Positions 19,314 through 33,441 of a DNA stretch of 64,000 nucleotides are shown one piece after another. The notes under the pieces are model-generated. The model was not told the DNA's origin, ran no database searches, and worked only from the letters and a program-made list of their open reading frames with translations. Each line of letters starts with the position of its first letter. Positions within the stretch are counted from its first letter, which is position 1. This DNA comes from Porphyrobacter sp. GTDB taxonomy: Bacteria > Pseudomonadota > Alphaproteobacteria > Sphingomonadales > Sphingomonadaceae. Both the position numbers and the translations under genes were made by a program. The stretch is from the NCBI GenBank assembly GCA_027531395.1, contig JAPZRO010000002.1, forward strand, positions 62,001 through 126,000. The letters are read 5' to 3'.

Positions 19314-19457
19314 CATTCTTACGCACAGACTTCCCCCACGGCAATTCCTGCCGTTTGCGTAAAGTTGCTTTGCGCATCGCTTGCGCTTAGCCCTTGTGCC
19401 AGAGCCCGAAAACGGGCCGAAGCCACCCCATCGCGGGGGGCCTTGCGGGAGAGACCC

Positions 19458-20978
19458 TTGCGGCAGTTGCAAGGCATGGATTCCTCGTTCGTCGCGCTGG
19501 AATCGCCGAATTCGCCGATGCATATCGGCTCCGTCCTGATCTACAATCCGGCGACGGCCCCGGGCGGGTTCGTGCGGTTCAAGGACATTCTCCAGTTCAT
19601 CGGCTCGCGGATGCAGCTGTCGCGCACCATGCGCCAGCGGCTGGTGCGGGTGCCGTTCGATCTCGATTACCCCTACTGGGTCGAGGATCCGGACTTCGAT
19701 CTCGAATATCACGTGCGCCATGTCGCCCTGCCCAAGCCGGGGGACTGGCGCCAGCTGTGCATCCAGGCGGCGCGCATCCATGCCCGCCCGCTCGATCTGA
19801 ACAGGCCGCCGTGGGAGTTCACCGTGGTCGAGGGGCTGGACGCGGTCGAGGGCTATCCGCCCGGCTGCTTCGCCTTCGTCACCAAGGTCCACCACGCCGC
19901 GATCGACGGGATGAGCGGGATCGACCTGATGGAGGCGCTCCACACGCTCACGCCCGATGCTGGGCCGCCGTCCAAGCCCGATACGTGGAAGCCGGAGAAG
20001 ATCCCCGGCCCCGTGGAGCTGCTCGGCAAATCCTACATCAACGCGCTGCTCAATCCGTTGAAGCAGGCGCAGGTCGCGGCCAAGGCCGTGCCGGGGGTAG
20101 CGGGCGTGATCCGCGGGCTGATCGCCAAGGACTTCAAGCTCTCCACCGATCTCGTGCCGCCGCGTACGCGCTTCAACCGCACCATCTCGCCGCACCGCGT
20201 GGTCGAGGGGCGGACCTTCGATCTCAAGGAATTCAAGGCCATCCGCGCGCTGCTGCCCGAGGCCAAGGTCAATGACGTGGCGATCGCGGTGATCGGCGGG
20301 GCCTTGCACAAATACCTTAGCGCCAAGGGCGATCTGCCCAAGGCCACCATGACGGCGATGGCCCCGATCTCGGTGCGCGCCACCGACGAGAAGGGCGACA
20401 TGGGCAACCAGGTGGCGGCGATGATCGCTCCGCTCGGCACGCACATCGCCGATCCGGCCGAGCGGCTCGCCTATGTCTACAGCCAGACCAACAATTCCAA
20501 GGCGATGACCAACGCGCTGGGCGCGCGGCGGATGACCGAGGTGAGCAAGGTCAACCCGCTGCTTTACATGGCGCTGGGGGCGCAGCTGTTCAGCCGGGTG
20601 AGTCTCGCGCACCGGCTGGCGATGCCGTTCAACACCGTGGTGACCAACGTGCCCGGCCCGCCGGTGCACATCTATTCGAGCGGCGCGCGGCTCGAAAGCA
20701 TGGCGCTGTCACTGATATGCCTCACCGATGGGCTGGGGCTGGCGCACGTCGTGCAGTCCTATGTCGGCGAGGCCTATATCAGCTTCACCGCCTGCCGCGA
20801 CATCATGCCCGATCCCGAGTTCTATTCGCAGTGCCTGCAGGACAGCTTCGACGAACTGCTGGCCGCCGCGCGGGCATTGGAGGCGGCGCCTGCCGCCGCG
20901 CCCGCCGCGAAAGCCAAGACCAAACCCAAAGCCAAGCCGCGCGCCAAGGCAGCCCGCGCACCCCGGGAGAATGCATGA
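19458..20978 (+). CDS. wax ester synthase/diacylglycerol acyltransferase (WS/DGAT) family protein
   Basis: LQGMDSSFVALESPNSPMHIGSV; TKVHHAAIDGMSGIDLMEAL (HHxxxDG); GNQVAAMIAPLGTHIADPAERL. TTG 19458 or ATG 19476 start. Confidence 0.92.
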   Translation: MRQLQGMDSSFVALESPNSPMHIGSVLIYNPATAPGGFVRFKDILQFIGSRMQLSRTMRQRLVRVPFDLDYPYWVEDPDFDLEYHVRHVALPKPGDWRQLCIQAARIHARPLDLNRPPWEFTVVEGLDAVEGYPPGCFAFVTKVHHAAIDGMSGIDLMEALHTLTPDAGPPSKPDTWKPEKIPGPVELLGKSYINALLNPLKQAQVAAKAVPGVAGVIRGLIAKDFKLSTDLVPPRTRFNRTISPHRVVEGRTFDLKEFKAIRALLPEAKVNDVAIAVIGGALHKYLSAKGDLPKATMTAMAPISVRATDEKGDMGNQVAAMIAPLGTHIADPAERLAYVYSQTNNSKAMTNALGARRMTEVSKVNPLLYMALGAQLFSRVSLAHRLAMPFNTVVTNVPGPPVHIYSSGARLESMALSLICLTDGLGLAHVVQSYVGEAYISFTACRDIMPDPEFYSQCLQDSFDELLAAARALEAAPAAAPAAKAKTKPKAKPRAKAARAPRENA

Positions 20979-21781
20979 TGGCGAGCGCCGCAATGAAGAC
21001 TGAAGCCGCGACCGCCGAGCCGCCGCACCGCCTCTGGACGCTGCTCGAAGGGCGCGCGATGTTCGAGCTCGGGCTGTTCTACGCCGCCAGCCCGCTGTTC
21101 GCGACGCTACCCAAAGGTGATGGCCATGCGGTGATGACCCTGCCCGGCTTCATGGCCTCGAACAGCTCGACCGTGCCGATGCGCCGGGTGCTGAGCCGCC
21201 TCGGCTATGATCCGCACGGCTGGGACTCGGGCCGCAACGTGCGGGTCGACAATGCGCTGATCGGCCGGTTGCAGAACCAGCTGGCGCGGCTTGCCGACAG
21301 CAGCGGGCGCAAGGTCTCGCTGATCGGCTGGAGCCTCGGCGGGGTGCTGGCGCGCGAACTGGCCAAGCTCCATCCGGACAAGGTGCGGCTGGTGATCAGC
21401 CTCGGCAGTCCGATTTCGGATGATCGCGGGCACACCAATGCCGCGCGCCTGTTCGAACTGCTCAACGGCAAGGAGCCCGAGCCGATGCAGGGCGGCAGGT
21501 TCCGCGGGCTGGACGAAGCGCCGCCGGTGCCGACCACCTCGATCTTCACCAAGACCGACGGGATCGTCCATTGGCGCGGGAGCGTGCAGCACCCCCACAA
21601 GTCGCGCGGGCCCCATCCGACCGAGAATATCCAGGTCCATGCCAGCCATTGCGGGCTCGGCGTGAACCCGAGCGTGATGGTGGCGATGGCCGACCGGCTG
21701 GCGCAGCCGGAGGGCGAATGGAAGCCCTTCACCCCGCCGCCCGCACACCGCTGGATGTTCCCCCGCACCCACACCAACTGA
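20975..21781 (+). CDS. alpha/beta hydrolase (esterase/lipase-like)
   Basis: LIGWSLGGVLARELAKLHPDKVRLVISLGSP (GxSxG); overlaps the WS/DGAT stop. Confidence 0.82.
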   Translation: MMASAAMKTEAATAEPPHRLWTLLEGRAMFELGLFYAASPLFATLPKGDGHAVMTLPGFMASNSSTVPMRRVLSRLGYDPHGWDSGRNVRVDNALIGRLQNQLARLADSSGRKVSLIGWSLGGVLARELAKLHPDKVRLVISLGSPISDDRGHTNAARLFELLNGKEPEPMQGGRFRGLDEAPPVPTTSIFTKTDGIVHWRGSVQHPHKSRGPHPTENIQVHASHCGLGVNPSVMVAMADRLAQPEGEWKPFTPPPAHRWMFPRTHTN

Positions 21782-21814: not shown

Positions 21815-24800
21815 TCAGAACAGCTTGCGCAGATCGATGCCGAGGTAGAGCCCCACCGGATCGATCACGAAGGGCTGGTAGTTGATCGGCGTGTCGCCGT
21901 TCGAATCCCGCACCCGGCGCTGCGCGTCGAACAGGTTGTCGGCCCGCAGGCTCACCCGCGTATCCTTGAGGAAGCCCTCGTTCTTGCCGGTGATCTCGCC
22001 GATATTGGCGAAGACGCGCAGGTTGAAGGTGACGATATCCTCGAAGAACAGATCGGTGCTGCCCGGCAGGCCCGAGCCGTCGAGGCGCGTCTCGCCGGTG
22101 TAGATCCCCGACAGGCGGAAACCCATGCCCTTGCCGAACAGGCCCGCTTCGAGCCGGCTGGAATGGCGCGGCAGACCGAAGGCGCCGGTCGCCTGGCCAT
22201 CGAGCTGGTCGAGCGGGGCGAGGCCGTCGGCGATCAGGATCTCGTTGTCGAGCTCGATCGTGTGGGTCAGGTTCACGAAGTAGCGGAAGCCCGGGAAGTT
22301 GCGGCCGCCCAGCGGGTTGAAGGCCGGTCCGCCCGCAGGCGCACCGCCAGCCCCCGCCGGAGGACCACCGGCCCCGGCCTGCGCCTGCGCCGGCGCGGGT
22401 GCCATGGCGCAGAAGCGCTGCTTGAACTGCTCAAGGGCCTCGGGCGGGATGGTGCCGTCAGGCGCGCGCGAACGGTCGATGGCCATCTTGATGAAGGCCG
22501 GATCGACGCCGGGCAGCTCGGCCGAGACATCCTCGCCGCGCTCGATCTTGCCGATCAGCTCGGCGATCGCGGCATTGCCGTCGGGGCCGCAGGCCTTCTC
22601 GCGGAAGGCGGCGAATTGCGGGTTGGCGGCAGGCGCACCGCCCTGCCCCGGCGCGCCGCCGGGAGCGCCGCCGCCCATCATCGCCGGGTCGATGGAACAG
22701 ATGCGCGTGCGGAACTGCGCCAGCCGCGCCGGATCGATCTTGCCATCCTCGCCGCGCAGGCGCGAGAGCATCGGCGCGAGGCGCGCAGGGTCGATGCCCG
22801 GATACTCGGCGGAGATATCCGCCCCGCTATCGATCGCGGCGACCAGCTTTTCGAGGAAGGCCGCGCCGTCATCGGCGCATAGCCGGGCGCGGAAGGCCAT
22901 GAACTGCTCCCGCTGCATAGGGCTTGGCATAGCGCCCCCAAAGCGCGGCGGTCCGCCTGCCGGCGCCTGCGCCTGTGCCGGAGCGGCAGCCGGCCCGGTG
23001 GTCGGCGGCGCGGGCTGAGCCGCCGCTGCCGCCGGAGGCCCGCCGGCACCCGCCGGACGACCGCCGCCGAAACCGCCACCACCACCGCCGCCGAAGCCGC
23101 CCGGGCCGCCCGCCGGCGCGCCGATGCTGCCATTGGTCGAGAAGATGAACTGCACGCGGTTGGCGCGGGTCTCGGCAAAGCTCACCGCGCGCCGGTCAAC
23201 CGCGATCAACCGGCCATTGGCATCGCGGGTCACCCGGCCGGGGAAAGCGGCCTCGATCTCGGGAGTGATCTGCGGGAAGGCGCTGACCACATTGTCCGAA
23301 CGGTTGCGGATGTATTCCACCGTCAACCGGGTGTTCTCCCAGAACGGCAGCGACCAGTTGGCGGCGAACTTCCAGTCGCGCTGGGTTTCCGCCGGCAGCG
23401 CCGGATTGCCGCCAGTGGTGACATCGGCCAGCACCGTCTGACCGGTGGTGAAGTCGAACACCGGCACGTTGAAATTGGTGATCACCGGATTGCCCAGCGC
23501 GCCCAGACCCGGCGCAACTTCGCGCCAGATATAGGTCGCCGACAGGTCAAGCCCGTCGACCGGCGACCAGTTGAGCCCTGCGTTCCAGTCGCCCAGCACG
23601 CCGAAATCGCTGAGATCCTCGACTCCCGCCTGCAGGTTGAGCGTGAAGGTGCCGAGCGCATCGGCCACGCCGGCGCGGCGGCTGGTTATCGGGACGACGA
23701 CATTGGCCCCGGTCGAAAGATTGCGCCGGGTGAGCGTGACGTCCTGATTGCTGCGAGTGTCGCCGCTTTCGATCCGCTGCCAGTCGAGCCCGAAATCGAA
23801 GGTCGCCAGCACCTCGCCCGCAGGCAGCTCGCCGAGCGGGCCTTCGAGCGTGGTCTGCGACTGGCCGGTGATGTTGCGGCTGCGCGCCACGTCGAACCCG
23901 GCGTCGGCATTGGTCGGCAGCGGGCCGGTGGGCGAGAGCGTGCCGGCGAGCGCCGCCTGCCGCAGCGCGGTGGTATCGAAGCGGCGGTCGATCTTCGTCT
24001 CGGTCTCGCTTAGCGAGGCGTCGAAGGTGGTGGTGAGGCGGAAATTGTTGACGGGCCGGGTCATCGAGCCGGCGGTGGCGAAGCGGTCGGTGGAGGAGCG
24101 CCGCGTCAGCGGGGTGTCCTCGCCGAAGGTTCGCACGATGCCCGGCACGGCCGGATCGGCGGTCAGCGTCACGGTGTTGAGCCCGTCGAGGCTGCGGCTT
24201 TCGCTGCGCACGTAATTGAGGTTGGCGCTCAGCGCGGTGCCGCTGTCGATCAGCGCCTTGGCCCAGCTGAGGTTGCCTTCGAAGCCGAAGGTGTCGGCGG
24301 TGAGGCTGCGGAATTCGGCCTGCGCCGGATCACCCGCCACGCCCGAGACCGAGCCCGGGGTCTGGATGATGTCGCGCTCGTCCTCTGTCAGCAGCGAGGC
24401 GTCGGACAGCTCGAAATCGAGGTTGAAGCGGCCGCCGTCGGCGATGCGCAGCGTGCCGAAATCCTGCTCGGTGCGGACAAATCCCCCGCGCGAAGGGGTT
24501 TCGAACTCCATCTCGACTTCGCGGTTGGAGTAGTTGTCCTTGAGAATCAGGTTGATCACGCGCCGGTCAGGCGGAAAGCCGAAGCGCTGGGCGACTTCCT
24601 CGGGGAACACCTCGACCCGCGCCAGCGCCTCGGGCGGATAGGAGGCGAATTCGCGGAAGCTCCCGATGCGGATCCCGTTGACGAGAATCACCGGCTGCCC
24701 GCCGCCCCCACGCCCGCGCGCCGAGCCGGTCTGGGCGCTGATCTGGGCGATGAGATCGGTGATCGAGGTCACGCCTTCGGCCGCGATCGCCTGTTCGTCG

Positions 24801-25051
24801 AGCTGCAGCAGCGGCGCCTGATCGACCATCAGCTGGCCGCGGATGCGCTTGCCGCTGACGACGATCTCATCGGCCGACACCGCGGTGCCGCTGGCGGACT
24901 CGGGTTCCTCTTCCTCAGCCGTCTGCTGCACCGCGACCGGCTGCGGCTGCGCGGTCTCGGCGGTGCGGGCCAGCACCGGGAGGGCGGCGGCAAGGCTTGC
25001 AGCGCAGGTGCCGGCGCACAGCATCGCGCGGGAAAGCGGGGAGAGGTTCAT
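21815..25051 (-). CDS. TonB-dependent receptor with large low-complexity/two-Cys-module insertion
   Basis: Plug region SITDLIAQISAQTGSARGRGGGGQPVILVNGIRIGSFREFASYPPEALARVEVFPEEVAQRFGFPPDRRVINLILK; barrel C-terminus FNLRVFANIGEITGKNEGFLKDTRVSLRADNLFD...LYLGIDLRKLF. Confidence 0.88.
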   Translation of the reverse strand: MNLSPLSRAMLCAGTCAASLAAALPVLARTAETAQPQPVAVQQTAEEEEPESASGTAVSADEIVVSGKRIRGQLMVDQAPLLQLDEQAIAAEGVTSITDLIAQISAQTGSARGRGGGGQPVILVNGIRIGSFREFASYPPEALARVEVFPEEVAQRFGFPPDRRVINLILKDNYSNREVEMEFETPSRGGFVRTEQDFGTLRIADGGRFNLDFELSDASLLTEDERDIIQTPGSVSGVAGDPAQAEFRSLTADTFGFEGNLSWAKALIDSGTALSANLNYVRSESRSLDGLNTVTLTADPAVPGIVRTFGEDTPLTRRSSTDRFATAGSMTRPVNNFRLTTTFDASLSETETKIDRRFDTTALRQAALAGTLSPTGPLPTNADAGFDVARSRNITGQSQTTLEGPLGELPAGEVLATFDFGLDWQRIESGDTRSNQDVTLTRRNLSTGANVVVPITSRRAGVADALGTFTLNLQAGVEDLSDFGVLGDWNAGLNWSPVDGLDLSATYIWREVAPGLGALGNPVITNFNVPVFDFTTGQTVLADVTTGGNPALPAETQRDWKFAANWSLPFWENTRLTVEYIRNRSDNVVSAFPQITPEIEAAFPGRVTRDANGRLIAVDRRAVSFAETRANRVQFIFSTNGSIGAPAGGPGGFGGGGGGGFGGGRPAGAGGPPAAAAAQPAPPTTGPAAAPAQAQAPAGGPPRFGGAMPSPMQREQFMAFRARLCADDGAAFLEKLVAAIDSGADISAEYPGIDPARLAPMLSRLRGEDGKIDPARLAQFRTRICSIDPAMMGGGAPGGAPGQGGAPAANPQFAAFREKACGPDGNAAIAELIGKIERGEDVSAELPGVDPAFIKMAIDRSRAPDGTIPPEALEQFKQRFCAMAPAPAQAQAGAGGPPAGAGGAPAGGPAFNPLGGRNFPGFRYFVNLTHTIELDNEILIADGLAPLDQLDGQATGAFGLPRHSSRLEAGLFGKGMGFRLSGIYTGETRLDGSGLPGSTDLFFEDIVTFNLRVFANIGEITGKNEGFLKDTRVSLRADNLFDAQRRVRDSNGDTPINYQPFVIDPVGLYLGIDLRKLF
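22394..22618 (-). repeat. two-Cys module copy 2 inside the TonB-dependent receptor
   Basis: QFAAFREKACGPDGNAAIAELIGKIERGEDVSAELPGVDPAFIKMAIDRSRAPDGTIPPEALEQFKQRFCAMAPA. Confidence 0.85.
22682..22906 (-). repeat. two-Cys module copy 1 inside the TonB-dependent receptor
   Basis: QFMAFRARLCADDGAAFLEKLVAAIDSGADISAEYPGIDPARLAPMLSRLRGEDGKIDPARLAQFRTRICSIDPA; 34/75 identities to copy 2 without gaps, both Cys aligned. Confidence 0.85.
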
Positions 25052-28405: not shown

Positions 28406-30460
28406 ATGCGCTGGAAATCCGTGGGCATGGCAGCTCTGCTCGCCCAGACGAGCCTTGCCTTGGCACAGGACGAACCGTCCATTCCGCGCGAACCCGCACC
28501 CGTCTGGGCCACGCCGTCCGAGCCGCTGGTAGTGCCCGAGAGCGTTCAGGGCCCCGTGTTCCTGCGCCGGCAGGACACCTTCGTCCGCCTCACCGCCACC
28601 GGCCACGACTATTTCAACAGCCAGATGATCCGCATTCTCCAGCCGCAGGCGCTGGAGATCGGCAATATCGCCATCGCCTGGAACCCCGCCGCCGGCGCGG
28701 CGCGGGTGCACAAGGTGGTGATCCACCGGCGCGGGCTGGAAATCGACGTGCTCGCCAAGACCGGCTTCGAGATCCTGCGCCGCGAGGACCAGCTCGAAGC
28801 CGCGATGCTCGACGGGATGCTGACCGCGGTGCTGCGCGTGCCCGATCTGCGCGTGGGCGATGATCTGGAGCTCGAATACACCATCCCGCTGCACGATCCG
28901 ACCCTGCGCGAGGCGAGCCACGGGCTGCTGTTCCTGGGCGATGCGCCCCCGCCCGGGCGCTACCGCCTTGATCTTTCGTGGGACGAGGGCCAGCAGCCGC
29001 GCACCCTGCTCACCCCCGATCTCGCGCCGGTGGCCGAGCGCGCCGCCAACCGCCTCGCAGTGACGCTCGACAATCCCGATACTCTCACCCCGCCGCGCGA
29101 TGCGCCGCCGCGCTTTGCCTGGAACCGGGTGATCGAATTCTCCGACTTTGCCGACTGGCCGTCGGTCTCGCGCCGGTTCCACGGCCTGTTCACCGGAGCC
29201 AGCACGCTCGCGGCGGAATCGCCCCTGCGCGAGGAAGCGGCGGCAATCGCGGCCTCGACCCCGGACAAGCTGGCGCAGGCGCAGGCCGCGCTGCAACTGG
29301 TGCAGCAGCAGGTGCGCTACGTCTATGTCGGGCTCAACGGCGGCAATTTCACGCCCGCCAGTGCCGACGAGACGTGGGAGCGCCGCTACGGTGACTGCAA
29401 GGGCAAGACCGCGATGCTGCTCGCGCTGCTGGGCGAACTCGGCATCCCGGCCGAGGCGGTGCTGGTCAACAACACGGAGAGCCTCGACGGGCTCGACCAG
29501 CGGCTCGCCAATCCCGGGATGTTCGATCACGTGCTGGTGCGCGCGACCATCGGCGGCAAGACCTACTGGCTCGACGGCACCCTGCCCGACGTGATCGAGG
29601 GGCGGAGCGAGCCCTTCCTGCCCTATCAATGGGTGCTGCCGCTGTCGGCCAAGGGCAACACGATCGAGCGGCTGGCGGACAAGCCTTTCGCCATCCCGCA
29701 GGTGATGGAGCTCTACGAGATCGACGCCACGGCCGGTTTCGATGCCCCCGCGCGCTGGACCCGCACCACCGTGCTACGCGGGGCGGCGGGGTTGCAGCAG
29801 CACCTGCAGTTCACCTCGGTCAGCGCCGGGCAGCTGGAGGCCGCGCTCAAGAGCCAGCTCAGCGGCTCCTCGGGATGGGATGCGGTCGACAGCGTCACCT
29901 ACCGCTTCGACCGCGCGACGCAGGCGGCGATCCTCACCATCATCGGCACCGGCCCGGTTGAATGGGAGAACGAGGACGGCGGCGGGCGCTACTATTTCCT
30001 GCCCGGTGGCGGCTTCAACCCGCCCCAGCGGCGCCAGCGCAGCGGCGGTTCTGCTGGCGCGGTGCCGTTCTTCCAGGCCAATGACTACAATTGCTACGTC
30101 ACCACCATGCGCTTGCCGCAGGACACCGATCCGGCCGACTGGGGCTTCAACTCGGTGTTCGACACCATGCTTTATGGCGAGACCTATTATCGCATGATGG
30201 AGGTGCGCAAGGACGACCGCACGCTGCGGCTCGTGCGCGGCAACCGGGTGGAGCAGCTCGAAATCAGCCCCGAAAAGGCCGAGCGCGACAATGCCCGGCT
30301 GGGCGAGTTCGACAATTCGAAGGCGATCCTGTCCTACAGCCCGGGCAATATCGGCGAGCCGTGGAGCGGGCTGAAGAAGGTGCCGGCGATCTCGGAAATC
30401 GACTGGACCGGCCCCAACCCGCCCTGCCTGCCGGCAGACATGCTCTCGTCCAAGGGCTAA
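28406..30460 (+). CDS. DUF3857 / transglutaminase-like domain protein (secreted)
   Basis: Signal peptide; RRYGDCKGKTAMLLALLGELGIPAEAVLVN transglutaminase-like core; N-terminal DUF3857-type region. Confidence 0.85.
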   Translation: MRWKSVGMAALLAQTSLALAQDEPSIPREPAPVWATPSEPLVVPESVQGPVFLRRQDTFVRLTATGHDYFNSQMIRILQPQALEIGNIAIAWNPAAGAARVHKVVIHRRGLEIDVLAKTGFEILRREDQLEAAMLDGMLTAVLRVPDLRVGDDLELEYTIPLHDPTLREASHGLLFLGDAPPPGRYRLDLSWDEGQQPRTLLTPDLAPVAERAANRLAVTLDNPDTLTPPRDAPPRFAWNRVIEFSDFADWPSVSRRFHGLFTGASTLAAESPLREEAAAIAASTPDKLAQAQAALQLVQQQVRYVYVGLNGGNFTPASADETWERRYGDCKGKTAMLLALLGELGIPAEAVLVNNTESLDGLDQRLANPGMFDHVLVRATIGGKTYWLDGTLPDVIEGRSEPFLPYQWVLPLSAKGNTIERLADKPFAIPQVMELYEIDATAGFDAPARWTRTTVLRGAAGLQQHLQFTSVSAGQLEAALKSQLSGSSGWDAVDSVTYRFDRATQAAILTIIGTGPVEWENEDGGGRYYFLPGGGFNPPQRRQRSGGSAGAVPFFQANDYNCYVTTMRLPQDTDPADWGFNSVFDTMLYGETYYRMMEVRKDDRTLRLVRGNRVEQLEISPEKAERDNARLGEFDNSKAILSYSPGNIGEPWSGLKKVPAISEIDWTGPNPPCLPADMLSSKG

Positions 30461-30545
30461 CAGACCGCAATGAGGGGCTGACAGGCCGCTGCTTTCGGCT
30501 AGTCTGGCAGGCTTGATGCCTCTGGTCCGGGATGCCCTGCCTGTC

Positions 30546-33422
30546 ATGAACAATAGCCTTCGCGCGCTTTCCGCCGGCCTGCTGCTGGCGCTCTCCCCGC
30601 TTGCGCTCACCACCGCGCTGGCGGCGCAGGAGACGCCCCCCGCCGCCACCGCGGCGGCCGAAGCGCCCGCCCCGGTCTGGGCCTTCGAGACGAGCGATGT
30701 GCCGGTCGATCCCGGTTTCGTGTTCGGGCGGCTCGACAACGGGATGCGCTACATCATCCGCCGCAACGCCACGCCCGAGGGCACGGCGCTGGTGCGGATG
30801 CGGATCGATTCCGGCTCGCTGGCCGAGAACGACGACGAGCGCGGGCTGGCGCATTATCTCGAACACATGGCCTTTAACGGCTCGGCGGGCATTCCCGAGG
30901 GCGAGATGATCAAGCTGCTCGAACGCGAGGGGCTGGCCTTCGGGGCGGACACCAATGCCTCGACCGGGTTCGAGAGCATCACCTACATGCTCAACCTGCC
31001 GCGCAATGACGAGAAACTGCTCGATACCGCGCTGATGCTGATGCGCGAGACCGCGAGCGAACTCACCATCGCGCCCGAAGCGGTGGAGCGCGAGCGCGGG
31101 GTGATCCTTGCCGAAAGGCGCGACCGGGCGGGCTTCCAGCAGCGCAATTTCGAGGACAACGTCGCCTTCATCGCGCCCGGCGCGCGCTATGCCGAGCGCC
31201 TGCCGATCGGCACCATCGCCTCGCTCGAAAGCGCCACCGCCGCGCAGATCCGCGGGCTTTATCGCCGCACCTATGTGCCCGCCAACACCGTGCTGGTGGT
31301 GGTCGGCGACTACCCGGCCGAGCAGGTCGAGGCGGCGATCCGCGCGCGCTTTGCCAGCTGGGCGCCCGCCCCTGCCCCGGCCGAGCCTGTCACCGGCCCG
31401 ATCGACATCACCCGCAAGGGCCTGACCGACATCTACATCGATCCGGCGCTGGCCGAGGAAGTGACCCTGTCGCGCTTTTCCGCATGGCGCGACGAGCCCG
31501 ACACCATCGCCAACCGCGACGCCGATCTGGTGCGGCGGATCGGCTATGGCATCATCAACCGCCGCCTCGCCCGCCTCGCACGCGGCGAGAACGCGCCGTT
31601 CCGGGGGGCAAGCTACGGCACCGGCGATCTGTTCGAGGATGCGCGGATCACCAGCCTCTCGGTCAGCAGCGCCGATGGCGAGTGGAAGAAGGGGATGCTG
31701 GCCGCGGTGCGCGAGGTCCACGAGGCGCTGGCCTATGGCTTCACCCGCGCCGAGCTTGACGAACAGCTCGCCAACCTGCGCACCGCTGCCGAAAACGCGG
31801 TCAAGGGCGCGGAGACGCGCAGCCATACGGTGTTCGTCGGGGCCGCCCTCGCACTGGCGAGCGACGAGCGCGTGCCGACGACCCCGCAATCGCAGCTCGC
31901 GGCGTTCGAGCGGATCGCGCCGACGCTGACCCCCGAGGGCGTGTGGCAGGCGGTCAAGGCCGATGCGGCGCCGCTGGAGGAACCGCTGATCCGCTTCGAA
32001 GGGCGCACCGCCCCCGAAGGCGGCGAGGCCGGCCTGCGCGCCGCCTTTGCCGAAGCCATGGCGCTTCCCATTGCAGCCCCCGCCGACAATGGCCCGCTGA
32101 CTTTCGCCTATAGCGATTTCGGCACCCCCGGCACGATCGTCTCCGACACCACCGAGCCGCGCCTTGGCCTGCGCCTGATCCGCTTTGCCAATGGGGTGCG
32201 GCTGACCCTGAAGCCCACCACCATCCGCGAGGACCGCATCGCCTTCACCCTCTCGCTCGACGGCGGCGATCTGATGAACACGCGCGAGGCACCGATGCGC
32301 GTCGCGCTGACGGATTCGCTCGCGCTGGGCGGCCTCGGCAAGCATTCGCAGGACGAGCTTTCGAGCGTGCTGGCCGGGCGCAGCGTCGGGCTGGGCCTTG
32401 CCAGCGGCGGGGATGTGTTCAGCACCTCGGGCAACACCACCAAGCGCGATCTGGCCCTGCAGCTGCAGGTGCTCACCGCGCTGCTGACCGATCCGGGCTA
32501 TCGCCGCGAGGGCGAGGAGCGGTTCCGCAAGGGGATCGACAATTACTTCGCCACGCTCGATGCGACGCCGCGCAACGCGCTCGGCACGGCGCTGGGCGGG
32601 ATCCTGTCCGACAATGATCCGCGCTTCACGCTCCAGCCGAAGGAAGCCTTCCTCGCGCTCGACTACGCCGGGCTCAAGGCCGCGATCGGCGACCGGCTGG
32701 CGAGCGGCGCGATCGAGCTGGCGCTGGTGGGCGATTTCGACGAGGCCGAAGCGATTGCCGCCGTCGCCGCGACGCTCGGCGCGCTGCCGCCCCGCGAGCC
32801 CGAGTTCAACCCGCGCGAGGAGGCCCGCACCCGCAGCTTCACCGCCACCCGCGGCCCGCGCGTCCTCACCCACAAGGGCGAGGCCGATCAGGCGCTGCTG
32901 CAATGGACCTGGCCCACCACCGACGACAGCGATCTGGCCGAGACCCTGCGCCTCGGCCTGCTCGCCCGCGTCACCCGGATCGCGCTGACCGAGAAGCTGC
33001 GCGAAGAGCTGGGGCAGGCCTACTCGCCCTCGGCCGGTGCATCGAACAGCCGGGTCTATCGCGATTACGGCACCTTCAGTCTCTCGGTCTCGGTCGACCT
33101 CACGCAGGTCGATGCGACCCGCGCGGCGGTCGACGAGGTGATCGCCGCGCTGCGCGATACAGGTCCGAGTGCCGACGTGATCGAACGTGCTCGCCGTCCG
33201 CTGCTCGAGGAATATGACAACGCCCTGAAGGACCTCGGCGGCTGGATCAGCCTTGCCGCCCGCGCACAGAGCGATCCCGAGCGGCTCGACCGCTGGTTCG
33301 CCGCACCCGATCTGATCCGCGCGATCACTCCCGCGGAACTGCAGGCGACCGCCACCCGCTGGCTCGCCGCAGGTGGCGCCGTCGAGGTGGCGGTGGTGCC
33401 GGAGGCCAGCGCGGCCAAGTAA
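30546..33422 (+). CDS. M16 family zinc metallopeptidase (insulinase-like, two halves)
   Basis: DERGLAHYLEHMAFNGSAGIPEGEMIKLLEREG (HxxEH); ERERGVILAERRDRAG downstream Glu; signal peptide. Confidence 0.94.
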   Translation: MNNSLRALSAGLLLALSPLALTTALAAQETPPAATAAAEAPAPVWAFETSDVPVDPGFVFGRLDNGMRYIIRRNATPEGTALVRMRIDSGSLAENDDERGLAHYLEHMAFNGSAGIPEGEMIKLLEREGLAFGADTNASTGFESITYMLNLPRNDEKLLDTALMLMRETASELTIAPEAVERERGVILAERRDRAGFQQRNFEDNVAFIAPGARYAERLPIGTIASLESATAAQIRGLYRRTYVPANTVLVVVGDYPAEQVEAAIRARFASWAPAPAPAEPVTGPIDITRKGLTDIYIDPALAEEVTLSRFSAWRDEPDTIANRDADLVRRIGYGIINRRLARLARGENAPFRGASYGTGDLFEDARITSLSVSSADGEWKKGMLAAVREVHEALAYGFTRAELDEQLANLRTAAENAVKGAETRSHTVFVGAALALASDERVPTTPQSQLAAFERIAPTLTPEGVWQAVKADAAPLEEPLIRFEGRTAPEGGEAGLRAAFAEAMALPIAAPADNGPLTFAYSDFGTPGTIVSDTTEPRLGLRLIRFANGVRLTLKPTTIREDRIAFTLSLDGGDLMNTREAPMRVALTDSLALGGLGKHSQDELSSVLAGRSVGLGLASGGDVFSTSGNTTKRDLALQLQVLTALLTDPGYRREGEERFRKGIDNYFATLDATPRNALGTALGGILSDNDPRFTLQPKEAFLALDYAGLKAAIGDRLASGAIELALVGDFDEAEAIAAVAATLGALPPREPEFNPREEARTRSFTATRGPRVLTHKGEADQALLQWTWPTTDDSDLAETLRLGLLARVTRIALTEKLREELGQAYSPSAGASNSRVYRDYGTFSLSVSVDLTQVDATRAAVDEVIAALRDTGPSADVIERARRPLLEEYDNALKDLGGWISLAARAQSDPERLDRWFAAPDLIRAITPAELQATATRWLAAGGAVEVAVVPEASAAK

Positions 33423-33441
33423 CCACCGCACGGCAGACACG

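Follow-up and report, generated by a model that had tools for sequence, protein, structure and literature searches.

The window, a 64,000-nucleotide stretch of DNA, contains a single open reading frame for a predicted TonB-dependent receptor whose barrel is interrupted by a long Gly/Pro/Ala-rich segment bearing two related modules (Table 1). Convergent to it, at 19365–21781 on the forward strand, are genes that, from the look of their sequences, putatively encode an acyltransferase of WS/DGAT type and a protein resembling alpha/beta hydrolases; the same convergent arrangement is found in most Erythrobacteraceae loci. A riboswitch search of all 64,000 nucleotides of the window found none, returning only one tRNA.

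Table 1. Coordinates of the receptor gene and its predicted parts in the window
Feature	Position	Strand	Basis or remark
TonB-dependent receptor gene	21815–25051	-	Single ORF, 1078 aa
Predicted signal peptide, residues about 1–31	24959–25051	-	Suggested by sequence MNLSPLSRAMLCAGTCAASLAAALPVLARTA; putative cleavage site
TonB-box-like stretch DEIVVSG, residues 61–67	24851–24871	-	Inferred from sequence
Plug domain, residues 68–178, with RGRGGGG segment	24518–24850	-	Weak Pfam Plug match at 88–149 and model
Whole T8 insertion, residues 644–921, 278 aa	22289–23122	-	Between barrel strands 16 and 17 (AlphaFold)
Gly/Pro/Ala linker 1, residues 644–710, disordered	22922–23122	-	pLDDT <35; length varies among relatives
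Module 1, residues 711–787, four helices, Cys725/Cys785	22691–22921	-	pLDDT about 90; relatives
Gly/Pro/Ala linker 2, residues 788–810	22622–22690	-	pLDDT <50 over most
Module 2, residues 811–883, four helices, Cys821/Cys881	22403–22621	-	pLDDT about 80; likeness to module 1
Gly/Pro/Ala linker 3, residues 884–921	22289–22402	-	pLDDT <50 over most

Assignment of the protein as a TonB-dependent receptor rests on its predicted fold, because the Pfam Plug match, at the expected place, scores 20.0 bits (E = 0.001) and so falls below the cut-off of 23.9. The AlphaFold model, built from 48 sequences (mean pLDDT 80; model numbering is the residue number minus 29), has 22 barrel strands in addition to a plug; its top PDB folds by Foldseek are PfeA, PirA, FepA, Cir, and BtuB, with E values down to 8e-21. 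An NCBIfam scan of the whole receptor gave no useful match, and none over the modules. The Ile and Val of DEIVVSG are conserved across 48 relatives, and we take this stretch as a putative TonB box ahead of the plug. The plug itself includes an unusual Arg/Gly-rich segment, RGRGGGG (TGSARGRGGGGQPVILVNG), which is kept in nearly all relatives. The receptor shares its predicted 22-strand barrel, plug, and TonB-box-like stretch with transporters of the PfeA/FepA/BtuB/FhuA type; it differs from them in the 278-residue domain-bearing insertion at turn T8 and is only 8%–11% identical to them in sequence.

In the model, this insertion separates strands at 594–614 and 893–910 (model numbering); its limits lie within about 10 bases of those first given. 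According to the secondary-structure listing of the model, 16 strands lie between the plug and the insertion and six follow it (893–910, 934–944, 947–956, 977–987, 1002–1009, and 1040–1048). The C terminus of TonB-receptor barrels is on the periplasmic side, and since six, an even number, of strands intervene, the insertion should leave the barrel on that same side. As far as the model can settle the matter, strand parity identifies it as periplasmic turn T8 in the usual count. The first-pass annotation had allowed for either a surface or a periplasmic loop; the periplasmic placement stands, and the surface loop is rejected on parity in the model. When outer-membrane receptors carry large insertions, these generally face the outside of the cell, which speaks for an outward-facing device that engages ligands, phages, or neighboring cells. 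Both strand counts oppose this arrangement, as does the pattern of connections, in which the other even-odd ones are short (2–15 residues) and most odd-even ones long, so that an exposed loop is very hard to credit. Drawings of the FhuA-TonB complex use turns T8 and T9 as the landmarks next to TonB (PMC11658791). As a side observation, a proteolytic fragment of a TonB-dependent receptor, Saro_3075, was recovered among soluble periplasmic proteins of a sphingomonad (PMC3608174).

Modules 1 and 2 align without gaps at 34 of 75 identical positions; 20,000 shuffles of module 2 gave at most 17 identities (mean 6.3). Searched against its own genome, module 1 retrieved module 2 (E = 6.9e-18) and nothing else, and matches to a module profile were confined to the receptor gene. 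Each module is predicted to form four helices, with pLDDT of about 80–90 within the receptor model and 86 when modeled alone. Helix 1 runs to near the first Cys and is followed by helices 2 and 3, a DGxI bridge, and helix 4, which runs to near the second Cys. These identities and confident helices support the proposal of the first reading that a small helical domain was duplicated within the protein. Near-invariant positions are the Arg residues of helices 1, 3, and 4 (97%–99%), a single Pro, a single Gly, and both Cys, and the conserved arginines could constitute a binding face. In some other genera the module lacks helix 2, with a Cys spacing of 37–42 as against 58–64, and both Cys are kept. 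Divergent tandem module pairs, with a Cys spacing of about 44–46, also occur at the same receptor turn in other genera of the family.

A Pfam scan of 119 modules returned no coherent family. Comparison of the module with PDB sequences gave no significant match (best E = 0.16), and the best PDB fold match had E = 1.2, Foldseek being weak for domains so small. The module is an unclassified small domain without a known relative in Pfam, NCBIfam, or the PDB. Neither disorder nor a well-characterized domain, the two outcomes that the first-pass annotation had named as refuting it, was found: the modules are ordered in the model and no library searched gave a match. The literature searched holds no description of such an insertion, which is weak evidence of novelty given that subscription papers were mostly outside that search.

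The receptor or a relative is present in 206 of 301 genomes of the order. A single-sequence search found the module in 82 of these 301 genomes and a profile search in 97, with 34 of the 96 genera of the family represented; about a third of the family genomes searched carry it. In samples of 385 genomes from the class and 299 from the phylum, strong matches are restricted to the Sphingomonadaceae/Erythrobacteraceae. The frames that hold strong matches are of receptor length, or shorter at contig ends. It had been asked at the outset whether the modules also exist as stand-alone secreted proteins; none was seen among the strong matches in the genomes searched. Outside the family, matches are weak (E = 0.002–0.007), and among those we inspected there is one EF-hand protein, the rest looking like chance. 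The weak matches of the single-sequence search proved to be an RND pump, ABC proteins, and an antisense frame. Module-less sphingomonad receptors of this family also lack cysteine at this turn and carry a Gly/Pro-rich linker there, with 47–158 residues between the flanking strand markers. Because module-less receptors retain this Gly-rich T8 linker, the tether must have been there first, and the modules either originated within it or disappeared from it.

We compared 79 named loci, mainly from Erythrobacter, Porphyrobacter, Pontixanthobacter, Qipengyuania, Altererythrobacter, and Tsuneonella. On one flank, among the loci that include it, the receptor nearly always adjoins maf and an rng-like gene, and on the other flank the WS/DGAT gene and the hydrolase lie near it in most. 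These flanks mark the receptor locus as a single orthologous one across the Erythrobacteraceae. This locus holds zero, one, or two modules, the variation in copy number that the first-pass annotation had suggested looking for, and a tree of 70 receptors, calculated by a quick method with the insertion removed and three rows left out, requires at least 12 changes. The tree of the modules is poorly resolved and gives a hint, short of proof, that the module was duplicated independently in Pontixanthobacter. Assembly collapse is an unlikely source of single-module receptors: the modules of a two-copy receptor differ strongly, and the named isolates Porphyrobacter sp. TH134 and Erythrobacter ani carry one. 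The Cys-Cys spacing was 60 in all 62 modules measured, and the linker lengths were 58–97, 32–49, and 32–44. Among close relatives, dN/dS is 0.04–0.33 for the modules and 0.12–0.33 for the barrel and plug; linkers mostly have higher values and have gained and lost residues. Purifying selection acts on the modules as strongly as on the barrel.

The two cysteine pairs, Cys725/Cys785 and Cys821/Cys881, are each 60 residues apart, and the only other Cys residues of the receptor, 12 and 16, are both inside the predicted signal peptide. Among 122 receptors with a recognizable plug, the mature part contains four Cys in 75, two in 30, and none in 17; odd counts do not occur, and every one of these Cys lies in the module region. 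A disulfide in each module is very likely because mature Cys always number zero, two, or four and fall within modules; it would probably join the ends of the first and last helices. The disulfide-closed module of the first-pass annotation is therefore retained, as probable. The pair might instead act as a redox switch, its opening in the periplasm altering the shape of the module and the activity of the receptor, and the presence of exactly one pair per module in every module-bearing receptor examined would suit such a role. We nevertheless think it improbable, as the two Cys are far apart in sequence (37–64) with no CXXC motif, and isolated structural disulfides are commonplace in a sphingomonad periplasm (PMC3608174). 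Still less probable is binding of calcium or a metal ion, the latter listed in the first-pass annotation, by the modules through Cys ligands or an EF-hand-like DGxIDP loop. The second half of the module, a helix, a DGxI bridge, and a helix, does resemble the EF-hand helix-loop-helix, and among its weak matches elsewhere are one EF-hand protein and one putative calmodulin. In contrast to an EF hand, whose loop is defined here as having Asp, Asn, or Ser at positions 1 and 3 and an acidic residue at position 12, the 119 modules have mostly Leu at position 1 and Arg, Ala, or Lys, never Asp or Glu, at position 12; they carry a Cys pair and give no Pfam EF-hand or other significant profile match. 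We rejected a calcium EF hand for the absence of the ligand positions, and metal or haem binding for the complete lack of His in these 119 modules.

The place of the modules, their tether, and their conserved surface suggest docking heads. A flexible Gly/Pro/Ala tether would leave the barrel at T8, beside the site at which the receptor is contacted by TonB. In this lineage it would present two modules of three to four helices, each probably stapled by a disulfide, to a periplasmic partner, whether the C-terminal domain of TonB, the cell wall, or a carrier protein of the periplasm. Such docking may tune engagement of TonB or hand-over of cargo. Both the docking role and the partner are what we infer from the features above, and we put the chances that the T8 segment is a periplasmic accessory domain with docking heads beside the TonB site at about even. 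Counting against it, no partner was found, and the neighbors in the named loci are housekeeping-like (maf, the rng-like ribonuclease, WS/DGAT) and point to none. The frequent shifts in module number, down to none at all, also count against it, making the function dispensable or replaceable. The strongest rival is a passive spacer, in which the modules are stable beads with no binding partner that shield the Gly-rich tether or make it longer; the number of copies would then drift because overall length and solubility alone matter. The repeated shifts among zero, one, and two copies and the orthologues with a Gly-rich linker only speak for a spacer. The fixed size of the module, its barrel-like low dN/dS, and its near-invariant Arg, Pro, Gly, and Cys exceed the needs of a bead, although fold and disulfide partly explain these constraints, and on balance both the inert beads and their drift by length seem rather unlikely to us. 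Transport itself probably proceeds independently of the modules, because orthologues with none exist.

Docking heads at T8 would be analogous in place to the signaling domains of FecA and FpvA, but the two are unrelated. Periplasmic accessory domains of TonB receptors are already known at the N terminus: those of FecA, FpvA, and FoxA compete with TonB for the TonB box and contact FecR, and the FecA and FpvA domains gate access of TonB (PMC11658791). They too are extra folded domains on a flexible linker at the periplasmic face. In contrast, they are N-terminal and contain β sheet, whereas the modules described here are inserted in the barrel, all-helical, Cys-paired, and present in zero to two copies; Pfam detects no STN domain before the plug of our receptor, and the extra domain sits at T8 instead. 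A more specific proposal, possible but tentative, is that the modules constitute a new domain family of one Sphingomonadaceae/Erythrobacteraceae receptor that docks TonB or a periplasmic carrier and thereby gates or channels TonB-driven uptake. If true, a domain hung from a barrel turn by the TonB site would offer another means of regulating or coupling transport, at a site on TonB receptors not described in the papers found. Orthologues with zero, one, or two modules at the same locus are natural controls, in ordinary environmental bacteria.

Elsewhere in the window, a 1058-aa frame at 30264–33440 on the reverse strand lies antisense to a 969-aa gene at 30513–33422 on the forward strand. Many relatives show a match to its translation at the corresponding place, and the frame is probably a shadow of GC-rich codon use.
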